DNA from: a virus
IMG/VR virus record: IMGVR_UViG_3300048929_000314
Location: 1 to 39,347 of that record
Length of the DNA: 39,347 nucleotides
Direction: 5' to 3' (one strand)
Both the position numbers and the translations under genes were made by a program. The notes under the pieces were generated by a model. That model did not search any database. It had not been told where the DNA came from and was given only the letters and a program-made list of their open reading frames with translations. Shown here piece by piece: positions 6,363-30,536 of this stretch; the stretch's first letter is position 1; each line of letters opens with the position of its first letter.

Positions 6363-8462
6363 ATGCCGAAGGAGATCGAGGCCACCGAGGTCGCGAAGCT
6401 GTTCGTGGTCGAGTTCGGAGAGCGTCCGGACGGCGGACCACTCCTGGTCGGGCCATTCACCAGCGAGGAGGCGGCCCAGACCGCCATGAGCGAGCTGGGC
6501 ACCGGCGAATGGGTCGCCGAGGGCTCCATCGTGTCGCTCGCCGCCGTTGCCGCGGCCGCCGAGGAGGCGCCTGAGGTCGATATGCCGGTCGACGAGCCCG
6601 ATGAAGGCGAGGAGCTGAACACGCTCATCCCCGTGCACGGTGTGTCGACCGTCGAGGGGCGCCCGACGGGCGACGGCCGCGGATTCCGCGCCGGTGCCAT
6701 CGACATCGGCTCCCTTCCGCAGCCTCTCGGCTTCGAGTTCGAGTCCAGCCACGGCGGGGACAACTCACGGGTGGCCGTGATCGGCCACATCGCCCAGATG
6801 TCCAAGAAGGAGATCGGCGAGGGCGTCTTCGAGGTCCGCTGGCAGGGCTACATCAACACCCTGTTCCCGTACGCGAGCCAGGCGATCGAGGGCATCCTCG
6901 ACGGCAGCTACGTGGGCGGCTCCGTCATCGTCGACTCCGTCACGGTGGACGTGACCGAGCAGCGTGAGGCCATGCGCGAGCGCATTCTCGCCGATCAGGC
7001 CCGCTCGGGTGACAGCGAGCTCGACGACGAGCCGCACCAGATGTCGAGCGAGGAGATCGAGGAGCTGCTGGACGTCTTCGTCGGCGACGGCGAGCAGGAT
7101 GTCACGTGGTTCTCCGCGGCACGGCAGCGACGCCTCGACATGGTGCCGACCGGCGCCTTCATCGAGGCGTACACGAACCTGGGCTGGGAGTTCGAGGACG
7201 AGCTGACGCCGGAGGCGGTCACCGCGTCCATGGCGGCGCTCGAGGACTGCGGCTGCCTCGACGGACTCGAGACCGTCGACCTGACGCTGCTCTCGGTCGA
7301 GGAGATCGAGGAGTACGACGGCCTCGACGCCGACGCACAGCTCGAGTACGCGCGCGAGCGTGGTGCGATCGTGGCATCGGCCGAGGCCCTGGCGCCCGGC
7401 ACTCACGATGGACCCGGCTGGATCACGAACCCGCTGGCGACCGCACGCATCCGCCGGTACTGGACACGCGGCAAGGGCGCGGCGAAGATCCGCTGGGGCG
7501 TCCCCGGCGACTTCAACCGCTGCCGCACGCAGCTAGCGAAGTACGTGCAGAACCCCGACTGGCTCGCGGGCCTGTGCGCGAACATGCACAAGGAGGCCAT
7601 CGGCGTCTGGCCCGGCCAGGAGGACGGCGGCCGCAAGCACCACTCGCTCGTGGCATCCGGCGCGGCTCAGGCCGAGGAGCTGTTCCACATGGTCGAGGTG
7701 GACGCCGTGGACGCGGCGCTGTTCGCAGACCCGCACTTCAGCGCAGCCACCGGCATCGACATGGATGGCGACCACATCACCGGCTACATCGCCGTGTGGA
7801 ACGCCTGCCACATCGGCCGTCCCGACCGCTGCACGCTCGCGCCGCGGTCGAACACCAACTACGGCTTCTACCGCACCGGCAAGGTGAAGACGACCGAGGG
7901 CTACGTCCCGGTCGGCCAGATCACCATGGCGACCGGGCACGCTGGCGAGTTCCTGGGCCCGCGCGAGGCCGCGTCGCACTACGACAACACGGGCTTCGTG
8001 TTCGCCGACGTCGCCTGCGGTGAGGACTCGTTCGGCATCTGGTTCTCCGGCCGCATCCGCCCAGACGTGTCGGAGGAGGATCGCTTCGCGGTGCTCGCCT
8101 CCGGCCGGATCTCGGGCGACTGGCGCGAGATCCCCGGCGTCGGCTACGAGCTGGTCGCCGGCCTCGTCGTGAACACCCCGGGCTTCGGCTTCGTCGAGCC
8201 GGCACTCGTCGCGGGCGCGCAGGGCGTGACCGCGATCCTCGCCGCGGGCGTGTTCGAGCCCGAGGACGCGGAGGAGACCAAGGCCGAGCCGGTCCAGTTC
8301 ACCGCGGCCGAGATCGTCGGACTCATCGAGACGACGATCGACAGCTTCGTCTCCCGGCAGGATCACGCGCGTAAGCTCGACAAGCTCGCGCCGATCCGCC
8401 AGGAGCTGCGCACACGCCAGCTCGCGGCCGCGCGGGCGCACTTCGCCACGATCGAGGGATAG
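6363..8462 (+). CDS. Capsid maturation protease, 699 aa
   Basis: This protein would cleave the scaffold part of the capsid protein during head maturation. The C-terminal third has the sequence style annotated as capsid maturation protease in actinophages: GDHITGYIAVWNACHIGRPD, GQITMATGHAG, HYDNTGFVFADVACGED, and VLASGRISGDWREIPG. Conserved His and Ser residues there are the candidate catalytic set; I cannot assign them without a structure. The N-terminal 250 residues are acidic and may be scaffold-like, and the middle holds THDGPGWITNPLATARIRRY, a nucleic-acid-binding-like basic patch. The start is ATG 6363 because AGGAGG ends 4 nt before it; the GTG at 6360 is too close. Confidence 0.8.
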   Translation: MPKEIEATEVAKLFVVEFGERPDGGPLLVGPFTSEEAAQTAMSELGTGEWVAEGSIVSLAAVAAAAEEAPEVDMPVDEPDEGEELNTLIPVHGVSTVEGRPTGDGRGFRAGAIDIGSLPQPLGFEFESSHGGDNSRVAVIGHIAQMSKKEIGEGVFEVRWQGYINTLFPYASQAIEGILDGSYVGGSVIVDSVTVDVTEQREAMRERILADQARSGDSELDDEPHQMSSEEIEELLDVFVGDGEQDVTWFSAARQRRLDMVPTGAFIEAYTNLGWEFEDELTPEAVTASMAALEDCGCLDGLETVDLTLLSVEEIEEYDGLDADAQLEYARERGAIVASAEALAPGTHDGPGWITNPLATARIRRYWTRGKGAAKIRWGVPGDFNRCRTQLAKYVQNPDWLAGLCANMHKEAIGVWPGQEDGGRKHHSLVASGAAQAEELFHMVEVDAVDAALFADPHFSAATGIDMDGDHITGYIAVWNACHIGRPDRCTLAPRSNTNYGFYRTGKVKTTEGYVPVGQITMATGHAGEFLGPREAASHYDNTGFVFADVACGEDSFGIWFSGRIRPDVSEEDRFAVLASGRISGDWREIPGVGYELVAGLVVNTPGFGFVEPALVAGAQGVTAILAAGVFEPEDAEETKAEPVQFTAAEIVGLIETTIDSFVSRQDHARKLDKLAPIRQELRTRQLAAARAHFATIEG

Positions 8463-24173: not shown

Positions 24174-26372
24174 ATGACGCAGACAACGTGGGGTGTTGGC
24201 GGCACGACCCGCTCGACCAACACCTCGGGTGCTGGCGACGGCTGGCGCACCCCCGGTATCGGAACCCCGACCTGCCGCGCCATCTACGACGGCACGCGCC
24301 CCGTGCAGATCTTCTCGGTCGTGCCCGCCGCGGGCACCGGCGACCGGCTGGGCCGCTTCCGCCTGCAGGGCGATGGCTCGGATCGCGCGAGCGGCTACTT
24401 CGGCAGCTCCGGATTCGCCATCGAGTTCCGCGTCATCCGCAACAGCGGCAACATCCAGCTCGGCCTGCTCGGCAACGGCCAGGGCCCGACCTACTGGATC
24501 TCCTCCGGCGACCCGGTGAACTGGTCGCCGAACGGCATCCAGCCCGGCACGCTGACCTACTTCCAAGCGCCGAGCGCGCCGACGAACGTGGTCATCACGC
24601 CTGGCACTGGGCAGATCTCCGTCGCGTTCGCGAACCCGACCGACAACGGCGGTCTGGCGCTGACGCAGTTCCGTCACCAGGTCTCGCTGCGCAGCGACTT
24701 CGCGACCATCGTGAAGGAGGTCACGGACACAAACACCCCGACCGTCATCACGGGGCTGCCCTCCAACGTGGTGCTCTACCACCGGATGATGGCGGAGAAC
24801 GCTGTCACCGCGGCGCTGTCGAAGAAGGGCGGCGCGGCCACCGCGACGAAGTCCTTCACGCTCGGCACGCCGCCGGCTACGGCGCCGACGCTCGGTGTCG
24901 CCTCGAGCTCGGACGGCTCGTACGCCTCGATCATCCTCACGCCCCCGACCACGGGCGGCCCGTTCCTGGACTACACGCTCACCACGACGCCCGTGGATGC
25001 AGCCGGCAACGCGACCGGCGCGCCGACGACCAACACGTTCACCACGATCATTTACAACAAGACGGGCCTGATTCCGGGGCAGCGGTACAAGTACACGGCG
25101 ACCGCGCGCTCTGCCAGCGGTAATTCGCCAGCGTCGACCCCGGTGTTCGTCACGCAGACAAGGCCGACCCTCGAGCCGGGCGACTACTTCGACGGGGCCA
25201 AGGTCGCGCTCACGGATGACGCCTTCAACTGGACGGGCACCGCGGGCTCCTCGACGAGCCAGGCGAAGGGCTTCTCCACCACTGGATGGCGCGCGTTCCC
25301 GACGTCGGGCGACGCGCACGGCGCGACAGGCGTCTGCTACTCGATGACCGGCGGGTTCAACCGCTCCCGCTCGGTGCGCTGCCAGTTCTTCTCGGACGCC
25401 ACCTCGGCCGGTGTCGTCTTCGGCACCGCGGAAGATCCCGCCAACGAGCTCGTGGACTACTCGGCCATGGTCGGGGCGCGGACGACAGGCCGTTCGCAGC
25501 AGCTTGCGATGGCGATCCGCTTCACGGACGCCTCGCACGCACAGCTCGCCACCGTGGTCGGCCAGAACGTCCTGGTGCCCGCCGGCGCCTTCACGCTGCT
25601 GCCGTCCGTCTACGCGCTGTCCCCCGCCGGGACAGCGTTCGTGAGCGTGCTCGTGATCGACGTGAACGACGGCACGAACTGGGCGCTGTGGCGCGGCGGA
25701 GATCTCCTGCGCCTCGACTCGGCGATCTTCTCCGTCGGCCAGCTCGACGGCTACTTCGACGGCGCGTACGTCGACAACAACCAGTGGAACTACGCCTGGA
25801 CCGGCACGGCGGATGCCTCGACCTCGACGCGCACGCCCGTCATCGCGGCGCCGACCGACCCGCTCGCCGACCCCGACTGCCCAGCACCCCCGGACCCGCC
25901 TCGAGCGCCCATCATCGACGACCTCTGCATCGACGAGACGGGCACCTGGCGGCGCTACTGGGCCACGATCCCGGCGACCGACATCCCCGAGTTCACGAGC
26001 ACGCTGCCCACGCTGATCCTGTCGACCGCGGGCGACGAGGCTCGGCAGGCCCGCATCCGGATCTACCCGAACCCGGACGCGCTGGACCCTGACGACATCG
26101 ACGACGCCAGCTACGACTCCGAGCTGATCGTCTCGTACATGCCGCCGAACACGGACATGACGCTCGACTCCCCGATGCAGCGCGCCTACGCATCCGTGGC
26201 CGGGAGTGCCACGATCCCCGCCGACCATCTCCTCTACGGCACGGGCGGAACCCCGCCGGTGTGGCCTGAGCTCGGATGTGGGCAGGCGTACATCGTCTCC
26301 TTCGACGTGCCAGTGACCGCTCCGATCGGGAACTTCTCGACCCGCGTGCTGCTGACGCGAAAGATCATCTGA
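24174..26372 (+). CDS. Minor tail protein with two fibronectin type III-like domains, 732 aa
   Basis: Residues 1-125 form a strand-rich start (TTWGVGGTTRSTNTSGAGDG, GRFRLQGDGSDRASGYFGS). At about 128-220 (PSAPTNVVITPGTGQISVAF, ..., NGGLALTQFRHQV) and 232-325 (APTLGVASSSDGSYASIILT, ..., GLIPGQRYKYTATARSASG) are two FN3-type repeats. About 330-550 is a lectin-like jelly-roll (SRSVRCQFFSDATSAGVVFG, QQLAMAIRFTDASHAQLATV). A Pro-rich hinge and a C-terminal 150-residue domain follow. Such multi-domain proteins form side fibres or tip proteins. Start has GGAGGGCGAG; ends TGATG with the next gene. Confidence 0.8.
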   Translation: MTQTTWGVGGTTRSTNTSGAGDGWRTPGIGTPTCRAIYDGTRPVQIFSVVPAAGTGDRLGRFRLQGDGSDRASGYFGSSGFAIEFRVIRNSGNIQLGLLGNGQGPTYWISSGDPVNWSPNGIQPGTLTYFQAPSAPTNVVITPGTGQISVAFANPTDNGGLALTQFRHQVSLRSDFATIVKEVTDTNTPTVITGLPSNVVLYHRMMAENAVTAALSKKGGAATATKSFTLGTPPATAPTLGVASSSDGSYASIILTPPTTGGPFLDYTLTTTPVDAAGNATGAPTTNTFTTIIYNKTGLIPGQRYKYTATARSASGNSPASTPVFVTQTRPTLEPGDYFDGAKVALTDDAFNWTGTAGSSTSQAKGFSTTGWRAFPTSGDAHGATGVCYSMTGGFNRSRSVRCQFFSDATSAGVVFGTAEDPANELVDYSAMVGARTTGRSQQLAMAIRFTDASHAQLATVVGQNVLVPAGAFTLLPSVYALSPAGTAFVSVLVIDVNDGTNWALWRGGDLLRLDSAIFSVGQLDGYFDGAYVDNNQWNYAWTGTADASTSTRTPVIAAPTDPLADPDCPAPPDPPRAPIIDDLCIDETGTWRRYWATIPATDIPEFTSTLPTLILSTAGDEARQARIRIYPNPDALDPDDIDDASYDSELIVSYMPPNTDMTLDSPMQRAYASVAGSATIPADHLLYGTGGTPPVWPELGCGQAYIVSFDVPVTAPIGNFSTRVLLTRKII

Positions 26373-27523
26373 TGGGCGTATTCACCGAGGCCCAGTGTGT
26401 CTCCGGACACACGGCCTACATCATGGACCGTGGCGGCATGAAGCGCGTCGGCCAGCTTCAGGACATGTCGCAGGTCCAGTGGGGCCGCGTCCGCGACACC
26501 GTCTCCGAGGCGTCGCTCGTGATCCAGGGCGACGCCTGCGCAGCGCAGTCCGACTTCCTGAAGTCGATCGAGCCGCACCGCAGTGAGCTGTGCCTCTACC
26601 GCGGCACTGAGCGGGTCTGGGAGGGGCCGGTCTCGCTGGTCGGGTGGCACCGCGACTACGTGGAGATCGGCGCCAAGGACGTCTTCGAGTACCTCAACTT
26701 CCGGCCGCTGCAGCAGGCGTACGACAACAGCTACCCGAACGACACGCTCGCGACCACCCGCGTCGCGAACATCCTGGCGTACGAGCTGACGCACCCCTTC
26801 ACCTTCACTGATGGTGCCGGCGTCGCGCAGTCGCTGCCGGGATGGGAGCAGCTCGACCCGCCGGCCAACATCCAGCCGTTCCTGCAGATCCTCCACTTCG
26901 CCGGCGAGGCTGGCACATCAGCCGTGACCACGAAGGGCTCGATGACGGTCGGCCAGCACATCGACAACCTGGCCCGCACGGGCGGCATCGACTACACCGT
27001 GGTCGGCCGCGCGATCATCGTGTGGGACGTGTCGAACCCGCTGTCGCAGACCAGGACGATGACCGAGGCGGACTTCTTCGGCTCGCCGATCGTGACGGCG
27101 TACGGCGCCGACCACGCCGTGGCAGCGCTCGCCCTGGGAGCCAGTGGCGCCTTCGGCGCAGCGGGCGCCAACGACGCCTACTACGGCCCGTGGGCGAAGA
27201 TCTTCACCACGTACGACGAGACCGACACGAACATCCCGACCCAGTCGCAGCTCAACTCGCAGGCCGACCGGAACATGTCCGGCCGGAACCCAGTGCCGGT
27301 CGAGGTGCGCATCCCCGACAATTCGAGCATCCGGCTGAGCGACGGCTTCGCACTTCAGGATCTGATCCCGGGCGTCTACGTCCCGGTGCGTGCGACGCTA
27401 AACGCGCGCCAGCTCGTGCAGATGCAGAAGGTGCAGCAGGTCACGGTGCGCGAGACAGGCGCCGACGGCGAGACCGTGCAGCTCACGCTCGTGCCTGCTA
27501 CGGCGCCTGACGAGGAGGACTGA
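26372..27523 (+). CDS. Minor tail protein (tail tip, Gp37-like), 383 aa
   Basis: ATG 26372 overlaps the previous stop. Contains RGGMKRVGQLQDMSQVQWGR, CLYRGTERVWEGPVSLVGWH, DYVEIGAKDVFEYLNFRPLQ, VGQHIDNLARTGGIDYTVVG, and a C-terminal strand domain (GVYVPVRATLNARQLVQMQK). This follows the plan of actinophage tail-tip proteins that resemble gp27/Gp37 of the baseplate hub (split barrel domains RxxGxLxxxSxVxWxR and ExxAxDxxExL). Assignment is by pattern and place, not by search. Ends with EEEDTGATG-style coupling: GAGGAGGACTG ahead of the next ATG. Confidence 0.65.
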   Translation: MGVFTEAQCVSGHTAYIMDRGGMKRVGQLQDMSQVQWGRVRDTVSEASLVIQGDACAAQSDFLKSIEPHRSELCLYRGTERVWEGPVSLVGWHRDYVEIGAKDVFEYLNFRPLQQAYDNSYPNDTLATTRVANILAYELTHPFTFTDGAGVAQSLPGWEQLDPPANIQPFLQILHFAGEAGTSAVTTKGSMTVGQHIDNLARTGGIDYTVVGRAIIVWDVSNPLSQTRTMTEADFFGSPIVTAYGADHAVAALALGASGAFGAAGANDAYYGPWAKIFTTYDETDTNIPTQSQLNSQADRNMSGRNPVPVEVRIPDNSSIRLSDGFALQDLIPGVYVPVRATLNARQLVQMQKVQQVTVRETGADGETVQLTLVPATAPDEED

Positions 27524-28032
27524 TGACCGGCGCAGGCGGCACTCCGCGCACCGGCGTCGAGCTGTGGCGCGATCAGGGCGAGCGCATCGGCTCGCTCGAG
27601 CGGGCCATGGTCGCGTCGCGTCGCCGTGGCATCAACCAGGGCACGACCGACCAGATGAATGCGTACACGCCGACGTACTGGGAGTTCTGGTACAACACCG
27701 ACGACACTCACCTCTACGTCGGCAACAAGTCCGGCGGCTGGCGCCTGTTCAGCGGGAATGTGGCCGTCGCATCCGCGGCCTGGGACACGACAAATGGCAC
27801 CGGCACCGCAGCCCTTGCCGGCCGCACCGTGAACATCACGATCCCGACGATTCTCGAGACGACCGAGACCCTTATCTTCCAGGCCGGGTCGGTCGGTTCT
27901 GGATTCGGCTTCATCTCGGGGGTATCCATCACTCGCAACCCGACGAACACCATCCTCACCGTCCGGTTCATGCAGATCATGTCGAACGCCACGCAGGCAT
28001 TCTCGGTCATCTGGCAGATCTCTCCGCTGTAA
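27523..28032 (+). CDS. Minor tail or fibre-tip protein, 169 aa
   Basis: Starts at the TGATG overlap. The N-terminal 45 residues are basic and helical (RDQGERIGSLERAMVASRRR), followed by WEFWYNTDDTHLYVGNKSGG and WRLFSGN, a short pattern common in phage collar or fibre-base segments, then a beta domain (GRTVNITIPTILETTETLIF, FGFISGVSITRNPTNTILTV). Placed last in the tail operon, so probably the terminal tip component or receptor-binding part. No named family recognised. Confidence 0.65.
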   Translation: MTGAGGTPRTGVELWRDQGERIGSLERAMVASRRRGINQGTTDQMNAYTPTYWEFWYNTDDTHLYVGNKSGGWRLFSGNVAVASAAWDTTNGTGTAALAGRTVNITIPTILETTETLIFQAGSVGSGFGFISGVSITRNPTNTILTVRFMQIMSNATQAFSVIWQISPL

Positions 28033-28045
28033 TACGAAACGGGGT

Positions 28046-28051
28046 TAGACT
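28046..28051 (+). promoter_or_regulatory. Putative -10 element for a leaderless endolysin transcript
   Basis: TAGACT ends 7 nt before the endolysin ATG at 28059, and no Shine-Dalgarno sequence is present in the 26-nt gap. This spacing is that of leaderless genes in Actinobacteria. No -35 box is seen. Confidence 0.4.
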
Positions 28052-28058
28052 GCCGCCC

Positions 28059-28940
28059 ATGGTGCAATCGCTGATTATCCCGTTCAGAGATCACGACATC
28101 GACATCCCGTGTTCGTGGCAGTGTCACAAGAACCGCAACCCGCCGTCGGTCGAGCCGGGCACCGACCTCGCGATCCCCAAGGGCACGCAGCTCATCTCGT
28201 CCATGGACGGAATCGTGCGCGGCGTGAAGCTGACGAACAGCGGAGCGATGGGCCGAGTCGTCTTCATCCAGGGCGCCGACGGCACCACCTGGACCCGCTC
28301 GCTGCACATGCTCGAGGTGAACATCCGCGAAGGCTCCCGCGTCTTCCAGGGCGACGACATCGGTCTCTCCGGCTGTTCGGCCAACGGCTACGACGTCCCC
28401 ATGTTCGGCGTCGGCTGGCACGTGCACCAGAGCCTCTGGGTCGACCGGAAGAACCCGGTCCCCGGCATCACCCCGACCGTCGACTTCATGCAGTACGTCG
28501 GCGGGTCGCCCGCTGGCGGCGGCGGCAAGCCCATCAATCCACCCACCCCAACCCCGACGCCTCAGGAGGAGGACGACATGGCCGGAAACAGCGGCTTCTA
28601 TTACACCCGCAAGGGCACTGGTGGCGTCAAGGACGCCACCATCTACCTCATCGTCAACGGCGATGAGTCCACGTACCACGAGTACAGCAACGGCGCCGGC
28701 AACGGCCCGATGCCCTCGGCGTACAACAACGCGATCGCTGCGGCCTACCGGACGGGCTCGTTCGCGCCCATCACCGAGGGCCACGCGAACGTCATCAAGG
28801 CGCAGAACTCGGCCAAGGCCGGGCAGCTCGCCGTCGAGCTCAACTGGGACGACGTGGAGGACGTCAAGAAGCTGCTCGCCGCGCAGTCCAGCGATCTGAG
28901 CTCCGGCTCTGTCGCTGCCACGGCGGCGTCGCTCGCCTAG
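28059..28940 (+). CDS. Endolysin, M23 peptidase domain plus C-terminal domain, 293 aa
   Basis: Cleaves peptide cross-bridges of the host wall at the end of infection. Residues 1-150 are a LytM/M23 domain: NPPSVEPGTDLAIPKGT, LISSMDGIVRGVKL, TWTRSLHMLEVNI, VFQGDDIGLSG, and GWHVHQSLW. The HxH zinc pair (WHVHQ) is present. In the HxxxD motif the His is replaced by Glu (EPGTD). After a linker (GGSPAGGGGKP, then PPTPTPTPQEEDD) a separate 120-residue domain follows (AGNSGFYYTRKGTGGVKDAT, VELNWDDVEDVKKLLAAQSS), presumably wall-binding. A strong internal start lies at 28578. No signal peptide, so a holin should be needed. Confidence 0.88.
   Translation: MVQSLIIPFRDHDIDIPCSWQCHKNRNPPSVEPGTDLAIPKGTQLISSMDGIVRGVKLTNSGAMGRVVFIQGADGTTWTRSLHMLEVNIREGSRVFQGDDIGLSGCSANGYDVPMFGVGWHVHQSLWVDRKNPVPGITPTVDFMQYVGGSPAGGGGKPINPPTPTPTPQEEDDMAGNSGFYYTRKGTGGVKDATIYLIVNGDESTYHEYSNGAGNGPMPSAYNNAIAAAYRTGSFAPITEGHANVIKAQNSAKAGQLAVELNWDDVEDVKKLLAAQSSDLSSGSVAATAASLA
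28564..28580 (+). promoter_or_regulatory. Internal ribosome site and ATG inside the endolysin gene
   Basis: AGGAGGAGG (28564-28572) stands 5 nt before an in-frame ATG at 28578. It opens exactly at the start of the C-terminal domain and would yield a 120-residue product ending at 28940. It is a better ribosome site than any at the gene's own start. Confidence 0.55.
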
Positions 28941-28946
28941 TAAGCT
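28941..28946 (+). promoter_or_regulatory. Putative -10 element for the lysis-membrane genes
   Basis: TAAGCT directly follows the endolysin stop codon and lies ahead of a hairpin and the gene at 29008. One more member of the TANNNT set at gene ends. Confidence 0.3.
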
Positions 28947-28958
28947 CTGCGGTGACTG

Positions 28959-28982
28959 GGGTGGTCGGGAAACCGACCACCC
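28959..28982 (+). terminator. Hairpin with GAAA tetraloop after the endolysin gene
   Basis: GGGTGGTCGG (28959-28968), loop GAAA, CCGACCACCC (28973-28982): a perfect 10-bp stem capped by a stable GNRA loop. Tail is TTCGCC, not a T-tract. It could end or slow the endolysin transcript. Confidence 0.6.
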
Positions 28983-29007
28983 TTCGCCATGAATCGGGGG
29001 AGTGGGA

Positions 29008-29493
29008 ATGCCGGGAGAGCTCTACGCCGCGGCGCTGGTGGCGGTGGCCGCCATTCGAACCGCCGTCCCCGACTGGGGTTCCTGGCTCGGCGACACGATC
29101 TCCGCTCAGTCGATCCTGCAGCTCCTCGGCGGGGGCGTGCTCATCATCCTGTTCGCGACGAACCGCATCCTCACGCGCGGCCAGCACCTCGACCGGATCG
29201 CGGACCTGCAGAAGCACCACGCGGCAGAGATGGATGCCGCCGAGGAGCGCCGCAAGGGCGAGGTCGCCGCGGCAGAGGCTAAGTACACTCTCATGCTTTC
29301 CGAGAAGGACGCGCGCTACTCTGAGCAGAAGGAGCAGTTGACCTACTGGCAGAACACCGCCGCACGACACGACGCCCGGGCGAACAAGGCCACTGAGCAG
29401 CTCGTCGAGATGAACGAGGTTGCCAAGTTCGGTGTCCACGCCCTGCACTCGTTCGAGGAGGCGGCAGCCGCGGAGAGGGGAGAGTCGGCATGA
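29008..29493 (+). CDS. Membrane protein with coiled coil, holin candidate, 161 aa
   Basis: Start ATG 29008 has GGGGGAG 5 nt upstream (a GTG at 29002 overlaps that site). A weak N-terminal hydrophobic stretch (ELYAAALVAVAAIRTAVPDW), a clear membrane helix (SILQLLGGGVLIILFATNRI) near residue 40, then about 90 residues of charged heptad-like helix (DLQKHHAAEMDAAEERRKGE, YSEQKEQLTYWQNTAARHDA). One or two membrane spans plus a long coiled coil behind the endolysin fits a holin or another lysis protein. It overlaps the next gene by 4 nt. Confidence 0.65.
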   Translation: MPGELYAAALVAVAAIRTAVPDWGSWLGDTISAQSILQLLGGGVLIILFATNRILTRGQHLDRIADLQKHHAAEMDAAEERRKGEVAAAEAKYTLMLSEKDARYSEQKEQLTYWQNTAARHDARANKATEQLVEMNEVAKFGVHALHSFEEAAAAERGESA

Positions 29494-29717
29494 TGCTCGA
29501 CGGCGACCCGATCGACGAGGACACCGAAGTCCGCCACCAGCGCACAGCCGAGGCCAAGGTCGCTCTCGACAGCGCCGAGATCGCGACGATTCACACCGAC
29601 GAGGTCGTGGCAGAATCTATTGGCCTGGTCTCTCTATACCGGGCAGCGCGCCAGGAGAATCACCTCATGCAGAAGTGGCGCAGGATTCTGCAGGGCTACG
29701 GACAGGGGGCGGCGTGA
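29490..29717 (+). CDS. Small hypothetical protein in the lysis cassette, 75 aa
   Basis: ATGA overlap with the gene before. Soluble and helical: an acidic start (MMLDGDPIDEDTEVRHQRTA), then KVALDSAEIATIHTDEVVAE, then a basic end (LYRAARQENHLMQKWRRILQ). Similar short proteins with NHLxxxWRxxL near lysis genes are common in phages of Actinobacteria; no function is known. Ends on GTGA with the next gene, so all four genes here are coupled. Confidence 0.65.
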   Translation: MMLDGDPIDEDTEVRHQRTAEAKVALDSAEIATIHTDEVVAESIGLVSLYRAARQENHLMQKWRRILQGYGQGAA

Positions 29718-30046
29718 ACGCTGAACAGATCAACGCGCTGGCGACGCCGTTCGCTCTCGGGATGGGCGTCCCGTGGTTCCTATTCACCCTGATCTACGGG
29801 GTTCTCTCGCCGTGGTATAGGTCGCTGCTGGGCTGGGTGATGTTCCTGCTCGGCCTGTCCGTGACCGCCGTCTTCGCCAACATCGTCGCTCGCCGGATCT
29901 GGGGCGAGTTCGAGGGCTACCAGTGGTGGGCGCTCTCCATCTACGTCTTCGGTCTCTTGACGGCCGCGGCGTTCGTCGTCATCGTTGTCGTGGAGATCGC
30001 CCGTGGTGGCGTTCTGCAGATCATTCTCAAACGGAAGAAGAAGTGA
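29714..30046 (+). CDS. Integral membrane protein, 110 aa, holin-like
   Basis: GTG start in the GTGA overlap. Three hydrophobic helices: LATPFALGMGVPWFLFTLIY, LLGWVMFLLGLSVTAVFANI, and WWALSIYVFGLLTAAAFVVI, with a strongly basic end (LKRKKK), which is cytoplasmic by the positive-inside rule. Class I holins have this size and three spans. It competes with the neighbours as the true holin; several membrane proteins per lysis cassette are normal in actinophages. Confidence 0.6.
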   Translation: MNAEQINALATPFALGMGVPWFLFTLIYGVLSPWYRSLLGWVMFLLGLSVTAVFANIVARRIWGEFEGYQWWALSIYVFGLLTAAAFVVIVVVEIARGGVLQIILKRKKK

Positions 30047-30486
30047 TGCCCTCTCTCGCCCACAAGTACCTCGTCGCCGCCATGCAGGCGGCGTTCGTCG
30101 TGCTGACCGCGCTGCTCACCGTGCTCTCGAAGGGCACCCCCGACGCCACTGACATCTGGCAGCTCGTCGGCGTCGGCGTCGCGGCGATCCTGGCGGTCAC
30201 CCTGCCGCTGCTCGCGACCAAGCAGGCCGCGGTGCTCAAGGTCTTCGGTGCCGTGATCGGTGCGCTGATCGCCGCGGCCGCGCCCATCCTGATCCCGGGC
30301 GGCTGGAACGCGACGAACGTCATCGTGGTCGTGCTGGCTGGTCTGAATGCGTTCTTCGTCTCCGTCGGCGTGGACGTCCGTGTCGACGCCCTCACGAAGG
30401 CGATCGTCGATCCGAACGTGGACACGACCGTCGCCGTGCAGCTCGACCCGAAGGCGTCCAAGGCCGCGTACGCTCGAGCTGCCTGA
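30046..30486 (+). CDS. Integral membrane protein, 146 aa, holin-like, last gene of the rightward arm
   Basis: TGATG overlap with the gene before. Hydrophobic helices at about 8-25 (YLVAAMQAAFVVLTALLTVL), 38-57 (WQLVGVGVAAILAVTLPLLA), 62-83 (VLKVFGAVIGALIAAAAPIL) and 90-105 (VIVVVLAGLNAFFVSVGVDV), followed by a soluble 35-residue tail (DALTKAIVDPNVDTTVAVQL). Four-span proteins of this type in actinophages are often called holins. The strong bidirectional hairpin begins 13 nt after its stop. Confidence 0.6.
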   Translation: MPSLAHKYLVAAMQAAFVVLTALLTVLSKGTPDATDIWQLVGVGVAAILAVTLPLLATKQAAVLKVFGAVIGALIAAAAPILIPGGWNATNVIVVVLAGLNAFFVSVGVDVRVDALTKAIVDPNVDTTVAVQLDPKASKAAYARAA

Positions 30487-30498
30487 CGCACTACAGAC

Positions 30499-30536
30499 GA
30501 GAGCCCCTCACCCCCCGGCCGGGGTGAGGGGCTCTC
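30499..30536. terminator. Bidirectional terminator hairpin between the two arms
   Basis: GAGAGCCCCTCACCCC (30499-30514) pairs perfectly with GGGGTGAGGGGCTCTC (30521-30536), 16 bp, loop CCGGCC. It lies where the rightward and leftward arms converge, and the stop codon of the last leftward gene (30508-30510) is inside the stem. Neither side has a long T-tract. Confidence 0.8.

Follow-up and report, generated by a model that had tools for sequence, protein, structure and literature searches.

A predicted Type II internal-start endolysin gene, with a candidate free C-terminal domain, in a virus akin to Microbacterium phages

The endolysin gene and its predicted products

We found that the M23-family endolysin gene of an environmental virus record is, with high probability, a Type II internal-start gene giving two products, the full-length enzyme and a free copy of its C-terminal domain (CTD); the short product is predicted to be translated, to bind the cell wall and to form multimers. 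Ribosomes starting at 28059 would make the full M23 endolysin (catalytic domain, linker and CTD), while those entering at an internal AGGAGG site and starting at 28578 would make only the CTD, of 120 aa. This free CTD would most likely join the CTD of the full-length chain, giving one catalytic arm with several wall-binding heads and more avidity; we infer this assembly of several CTDs per catalytic chain because published Type II cases assemble. The linker, Shine-Dalgarno (SD) site, ATG and CTD would form an exchange module, in which the ribosome site moves together with the CTD and which is joined to varied catalytic domains.

The gene lies in a window of 39,347 bases, which is the whole stretch of DNA that was analysed and is an IMG/VR virus record. 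The first 20 kb of the window matched 46 phage records, 43 of which were Microbacterium phages, and its structural genes show a distant kinship to Microbacterium phages. The features discussed below are the following:

28059-28940, + strand: M23-family endolysin gene, 293 aa (open reading frame; PF01551; holin gene downstream)
28152-28448, + strand: M23 catalytic domain, residues 32-130 (Pfam match)
28503-28577 (edges approximate), + strand: linker, Gly/Pro-rich and then acidic (..PTPTPTPQEEDD), from the translation
28520-28836, + strand: putative recently exchanged block, with the linker end, SD, ATG and conserved CTD core
28564-28572, + strand: internal SD site AGGAGGAGG
28578-28580, + strand: internal in-frame ATG, codon 174 (Met174)
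28578-28940, + strand: predicted second product, a free 120-aa CTD of an uncharacterised family (from the family alignment)

The endolysin matched the Pfam Peptidase M23 profile PF01551 (E = 2.7e-12, 47.1 bits, cut-off 28.7), and its layout is that of Type II endolysins, with an N-terminal catalytic domain and a C-terminal non-catalytic domain in one gene.

Position and strength of the internal start

The earlier note on this DNA had described a strong in-frame start at the border of linker and CTD, and this was borne out. The ATG follows AGGAGGAGG at a spacing of 5 nt, or 8 nt counted from the first AGGAGG, and the 120-aa frame starts exactly at the start of the conserved C-terminal family; Type II genes likewise have, in the linker where the domains meet, an in-frame start codon with an SD. 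The pattern AGGAGGN{3,9}ATG had 9 matches in the window (8 ATGs), all on the + strand, when 1.6 were expected, and 0 of 100 shuffles reached 9. Comparison with the ORF list placed only the ATG at 28578 deep within a gene, the other 7 being at ORF starts; those at 6363 and 10596 lie just inside listed GTG starts.

Coding-like ORFs of the window were selected on codon-position GC content; in the 31 chosen, the site at 28578 had the top SD energy (-11.0) of 124 internal in-frame ATGs and was joint best among 383 internal ATG, GTG and TTG codons; one site counted as internal in this set, 11669, is probably a true gene start. Starts were also scored with our own simplified Salis-type thermodynamic model (SD duplex, spacing and start codon, less the local fold), which is crude. 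The start at 28578 scored 1.1, second best of the 23 window start sites scored (best 0.7), and the main start at 28059 was far behind at 12.3 with an SD energy of -5.7, in agreement with the earlier claim that the internal site is stronger than the signals of the main start.

The C-terminal domain family

Relatives were sought in annotated phages, viral contigs and genomes. The CTD was found in the endolysins of Isperia, Wyvern, Matzah, Cinna, MementoMori, Damascus and DizzyRudy, in the viral contigs L002 and L011-L015, in L031, a prophage of Cutibacterium porci with an endolysin that reads as in L014, and in L040, another genome of the same family. A first genome scan gave no copy of the CTD and a second gave one (Cutibacterium porci, L031). 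Besides the centre genome, a match was found in 1 of 197 wider-family genomes (2 of 197 with the centre included) and in none at class level (1 of 394 with the centre included). The CTD of Camille also belongs to this family (profile E = 3.4e-8), and the endolysins of Camille and Damascus share 54% identity.

The CTD is joined to three catalytic types: M23 (window, L002, Wyvern, Matzah and L011), Amidase_2 (Isperia and L014, with L015 and L040 under the curated cut-off) and VanY-like (Damascus, under the curated cut-off). Searches of the CTD against Pfam, NCBIfam and PHROG gave nothing above cut-off, and its profile gave a single chance-level match to PDB sequences (E = 0.49). The predicted CTD monomer model had a pLDDT of 57, which is low confidence, and the full-length model one of 40; a PDB fold search with the CTD model gave 0 matches at E ≤ 0.001. 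Given the low pLDDT and the lack of a PDB fold match, we make no claim about the fold. The CTD would appear, on sequence grounds, to be a new and uncharacterised family, which we predict to bind the wall.

The only viral match at E ≤ 0.001 in the fold search was a stand-alone paralogue in MementoMori. This protein, gp79 (L033:1363-1761), and Cinna gp78 (L032:1323-1721) were the only stand-alone CTD copies found; in both an N-terminal hydrophobic segment, identified by eye, replaces the catalytic domain, and both are encoded about 18 kb from the endolysin in the same genomes. These paralogues are perhaps membrane-tethered wall binders or lysis modulators. They sit in a non-structural genome region near a sigma-factor gene.

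Conservation of the border Met and ribosome site

The border Met is invariant in the endolysins (13 of 13 aligned copies) and is replaced by Thr in both stand-alone paralogues. Its distance to the first conserved Gly is 5 residues in the window, 3 in Matzah and 2 in L014, L015 and L040, a shift of up to 3. Since the Met floats relative to the fold, a fixed structural role for it is unlikely. The residues before it vary (QEEDD, EEEEDD, EEAID, EIEDDD, EIGDQD, EGDET, QEDT and, in Camille, the basic KKRRKP); despite this the DNA has a GGAG or GAGGA-type stretch at start-codon distance, in differing codon registers. Every endolysin copy of the CTD family that we found has both the SD-like stretch and the border Met, with the site at the same relative position in relatives, as in Type II endolysins. 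This conservation supports the earlier suggestion that the internal start gives a free CTD, the production of which is a prediction here.

It may be that needs of the protein (spacing, solubility or protease resistance) maintain the acidic linker, that its SD likeness is accidental and that little or no short product is made. We consider this improbable. It is consistent with the occurrence of EEEEDD in many members and with an SD strength no higher than the synonymous expectation given below. However, in Camille the charge of the linker is reversed from acidic to basic and an SD-like site, ACGGAGAAAG, is retained (SD against synonyms: p = 0.026); the linkers of L014, L015 and L040 are hardly acidic and have GGAG in other codon registers; and an accidental SD leaves the invariant, floating Met unexplained, as well as the lack of border starts in those endolysins whose wall-binding regions are repeated or multi-module (see below). 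We also looked, as the earlier note had suggested, for relatives with the same protein and no ribosome site; none was found, and Camille shows the reverse.

The SD energies of 9 border ATGs were better than those of 95 other internal starts (Mann-Whitney: p = 9e-7). Compared with synonymous-codon shuffles, SD strength gave no signal (window p = 0.74; Fisher 0.91 for 9 endolysins and 0.22 for 18), because Glu-Glu codons by themselves give SD-like DNA, and so we make no claim that the SD itself is under selection at the codon level. GAA, and not the SD-stronger GAG, is the codon found in Isperia, Wyvern and LeeroyJenkins, and the internal SD of L011 is the third of 14 in its own gene by SD energy. 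With the full score, which includes local folding, the comparison with synonymous shuffles was significant for 9 family endolysins (Fisher: p = 8e-4), where none of the 41 control ATGs fell under 0.05, and for 18 endolysins (Fisher: p = 2.7e-6), which are not 18 independent lineages. It should be noted that p values in the wider survey are inflated, because the best internal start was chosen by score in the survey endolysins outside the window's CTD family. The significance was driven mainly by L011, L014, L015, OneinaGillian, Appa and Fork, and the window gene alone was not significant (p = 0.28). The combined tests left out, as redundant, L002 and the near-identical copies Cinna, DizzyRudy, L012 and L013, and Matzah or MementoMori in turn; LeeroyJenkins was scored but stands outside the 9-lineage Fisher values. 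The internal start outscored the main start in all 10 homologues scored, LeeroyJenkins included, and in the window, and over 10 genes the 41 other internal ATGs, taken as controls, all scored worse than the border start of their gene.

In two-gene endolysins of the PlyC kind, the binding and catalytic subunits are encoded by separate, adjacent genes. The earlier note had raised the idea that two genes became joined here when a stop codon was lost, which would make the SD and ATG relics of a downstream gene. The junction is indeed like gene overlaps elsewhere in the genome, and the gene-end look-alike GAGGAGGACTGATG that had been pointed out is present, at 27512-27525, 2 nt from where it had been placed; such a resemblance is to be expected where an SD site overlaps Glu/Asp codons. 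Fusion has also been raised, in the available text of PMC12203907, as an untested origin of Type I sites. Against this, the CTD and the catalytic domain share one open frame in 13 of 13 records, a split version was found in 0 of 13 and in none of the surveyed endolysins, and the site persists in strongly diverged copies, which is unexpected of a relic. We therefore rejected fusion by stop loss, for which neither the 13 records nor the survey gave a split relative, as very improbable.

Probable exchange of the module between phages

We compared the window with L002 and found that the block at 28520-28836 is 97.8% identical (310/317). Identity over the rest of the endolysin gene is 84.2% upstream of the block and 71.2% downstream, and the flanking genes stand at 76.1% (preceding) and 86.3% (following). 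The simplest reading of these sequences is that the block reflects a recent recombination between two phages, with its left end in the Gly-rich linker and the ribosome site moving with the domain. The sharp edges of the block make local purifying selection a less likely cause.

Survey of endolysins and a candidate single-CTD rule

The first 20 Microbacterium-phage endolysins suggested a rule, which was fixed before six held-out phages were fetched. In all, 29 endolysins were surveyed: border starts were found in 18 with one unrepeated CTD and in 0 of 11 with repeated or multi-module wall-binding regions. The 18 are those of the window, Wyvern, Isperia, Damascus, MementoMori, LeeroyJenkins, OneinaGillian (gp45), Goodman, AnnaSerena, Hortus1, Fireman, L011, L014, L015, L040 and the held-out Appa, Camille and Fork; their best internal start is at the border of catalytic domain and CTD, with scores of -2.8 to 11.2. 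The 11 are those of Golden, Dismas, BonaeVitae, RubyRalph, Birdfeeder, EugeneKrabs, TinyTimothy, Burro and the held-out Floof, Zeta1847 and ValentiniPuff, with best internal scores of 12.9 to 21.0. In 17 of the 18 the main start is outscored by the internal one (the exception being Appa, 8.7 against 8.1); the same is true of 1 of the 11, Zeta1847, where the internal start is away from the domain border. The held-out phages were 6 of 6 as predicted (Fisher: p = 0.10), and with this p value the support for the rule is suggestive only.

Self-BLASTP gave no off-diagonal match for internal repeats in 24 endolysins, even clearly repetitive ones; as it was blind to clear repeats, it was replaced by a local-alignment test with shuffles. 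Protein self-similarity z ranged from -1.1 to 2.8 in the 18 and from 2.0 to 46.9 in the 11, and a cut at 2.0 misplaces LeeroyJenkins (2.8) only. Modest z values (2.0-3.0) were seen in a related set, Burro and the three EK phages; all four endolysins have M23, a PG_binding_1 match (below cut-off in EugeneKrabs) and about 100 more residues.

The border-start CTDs fall into four groups, among which mutual blastp or profile matches are absent or marginal:

Group 1: the window's CTD family, with Camille
Group 2: AnnaSerena, OneinaGillian, Goodman, Fork and Appa
Group 3: LeeroyJenkins and Hortus1 (marginal mutual match, E = 0.01)
Group 4: Fireman

OneinaGillian gp45 (L041:7420-8241) is annotated as a 'membrane associated protein'. 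By eye it is CHAP-like, without a Pfam match, and it has its own border start (AGGAGGATGACACC-ATG) and a CTD in common with AnnaSerena lysin A. It is probably an unrecognised endolysin and was counted as such on that reading.

We tentatively propose, with slightly less than even confidence, that Microbacterium phages, and possibly phages of Gram-positive hosts at large, have two exclusive routes to several wall-binding heads: a chain with tandem or multiple modules, or one small CTD whose internal ribosome site makes free heads, with CTDs of this second kind moving as cassettes with their own start. If this is true, an internal start would be predictable from domain architecture alone. The rule makes the question of why only some endolysins use internal starts testable in hundreds of sequenced phages.

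Comparison with known systems

Published Type II cases, as described in the available text of PMC4777826, PMC7098653, PMC9430671 and PMC12203907, share the layout of the window gene, and the same texts give ratios of full-length chain to CTD of 1:3 for Lys170 and LysIME-EF1, 2:2 for the clostridial enzymes and 1:5 for LysP7951. LysIME-EF1 and Lys170, from Enterococcus phages, resemble the window in having one gene with an internal SD and ATG between the catalytic domain and the cell wall-binding domain (CBD); in LysIME-EF1 the internal SD is AAGGAGA and a Met starts the CBD in all relatives, according to the sections available of PMC7098653. However, the catalytic domain of LysIME-EF1 is CHAP and that of the window M23, no sequence relation of the CTD was found in Pfam or PDB, and the window product is a predicted one. 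CTP1L, CS74L and CD27L, from Clostridium and Clostridioides phages, also have a linker start, a free CBD and an SD conserved in relatives, but differ from the window in domains, host group and GC content, and the internal start is GTG in CTP1L and CS74L (PMC4777826, in part). LysP7951, from a Streptococcus thermophilus phage, forms a 1:5 complex and shares the Type II layout and an avidity model (PMC9430671, in part); its domains are different, and its stoichiometry was measured. The Type I endolysins Ms6 LysA and Ply2638A also have an in-frame internal start in the endolysin gene, and Ms6 is likewise an actinobacteriophage; unlike in the window, the start is between two catalytic domains and the short form is catalytic (PMC9430671 and PMC12203907, in part).

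It could also be that the short product is made and works alone, blocking wall sites or limiting endolysin activity, without forming a multimer, which we think unlikely. The stand-alone, membrane-anchored CTD copies of Cinna and MementoMori would fit such a role, as would the repression of CTP1L activity by added free CBD (available text of PMC4777826). However, the tested Type II cases yield heteromultimers, as far as the available text of PMC9430671 goes, and the restriction of border starts to single-CTD endolysins among the 29 surveyed fits a need for more heads. We thus favour assembly of the free CTD with the full-length chain.

The screen in PMC9430671 covered 3,780 endolysins and, according to the part of the paper available, gave predicted internal starts for 49.1% of a non-redundant set of 635, so that the phenomenon appears to be common. 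The available main text of that paper has no mention of Microbacterium and does not use the words repeat or tandem, and its tables may list a relative. Among the matches listed in the open-licence literature, none dealt with an internal start in the endolysin of a Microbacterium phage, or with a single-CTD rule. Internal-start endolysins themselves are known; what appears to be new here is the CTD family, the putative exchange module with its own ribosome site and the candidate general rule.

Predictions of internal starts have so far rested mostly on the scoring of single genes. Here, natural variation uncouples the ribosome site from the protein, through acidic and basic linkers, a floating Met and Met-less paralogues, and the start site appears to travel with the binding cassette. 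It should also be noted that genes recoded for expression may silently lose the second subunit (compare the codon-optimised CTP1L gene in the available text of PMC4777826).

The main start and the surrounding region

The main start at 28059 is without a good SD (-5.7 at a spacing of 12). One further feature lies upstream of it:

28046-28051, + strand: TAGACT, possible -10 element (weak) of a leaderless endolysin transcript, kept in L002

TAGACT ends 7 nt before the main start. It is not enriched in the window (2 found against 3.85 expected) and was rejected as a recurrent promoter on that ground, and a sigma-70 promoter scan of 26000-30500 gave no match. The earlier note had described the main start as apparently leaderless; because TAGACT is unenriched in the window, we grade a leaderless endolysin transcript as no more than possible.

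Residues 231-248 of the endolysin (28749-28802), TGSFAPITEGHANVIKA, are like the nucleotide-binding motif of phosphopantetheine adenylyltransferase, with weak matches in NCBIfam and PDB (E 0.02 to 0.5); this likeness is probably due to chance.

The zinc-ligand pattern of M23 peptidases is HxxxD ... HxH. By eye, residues 32-36 of the window protein are EPGTD (28152-28166), with D36 and HVH present and Glu32 where the first His of the zinc motif is expected. The same Glu was seen by eye in L002, Wyvern, LeeroyJenkins, the EK phages, Burro and RubyRalph, and the first His is kept in Matzah and L011.

Downstream of the endolysin is a lysis cassette (29002-30486). It encodes a protein with an N-terminal hydrophobic stretch and a charged helical part (29008-29493), a holin and a further membrane protein (30043-30486):

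29714-30046: Phage_holin_2 gene, downstream of the endolysin

The interval between the endolysin and the next gene contains a short hairpin, GGTGGTCGG-..-CCGACCACC (28958-28984), which may act as a weak terminator or as an element that stabilises the RNA; its stem is kept in L002, with one G-U pair.
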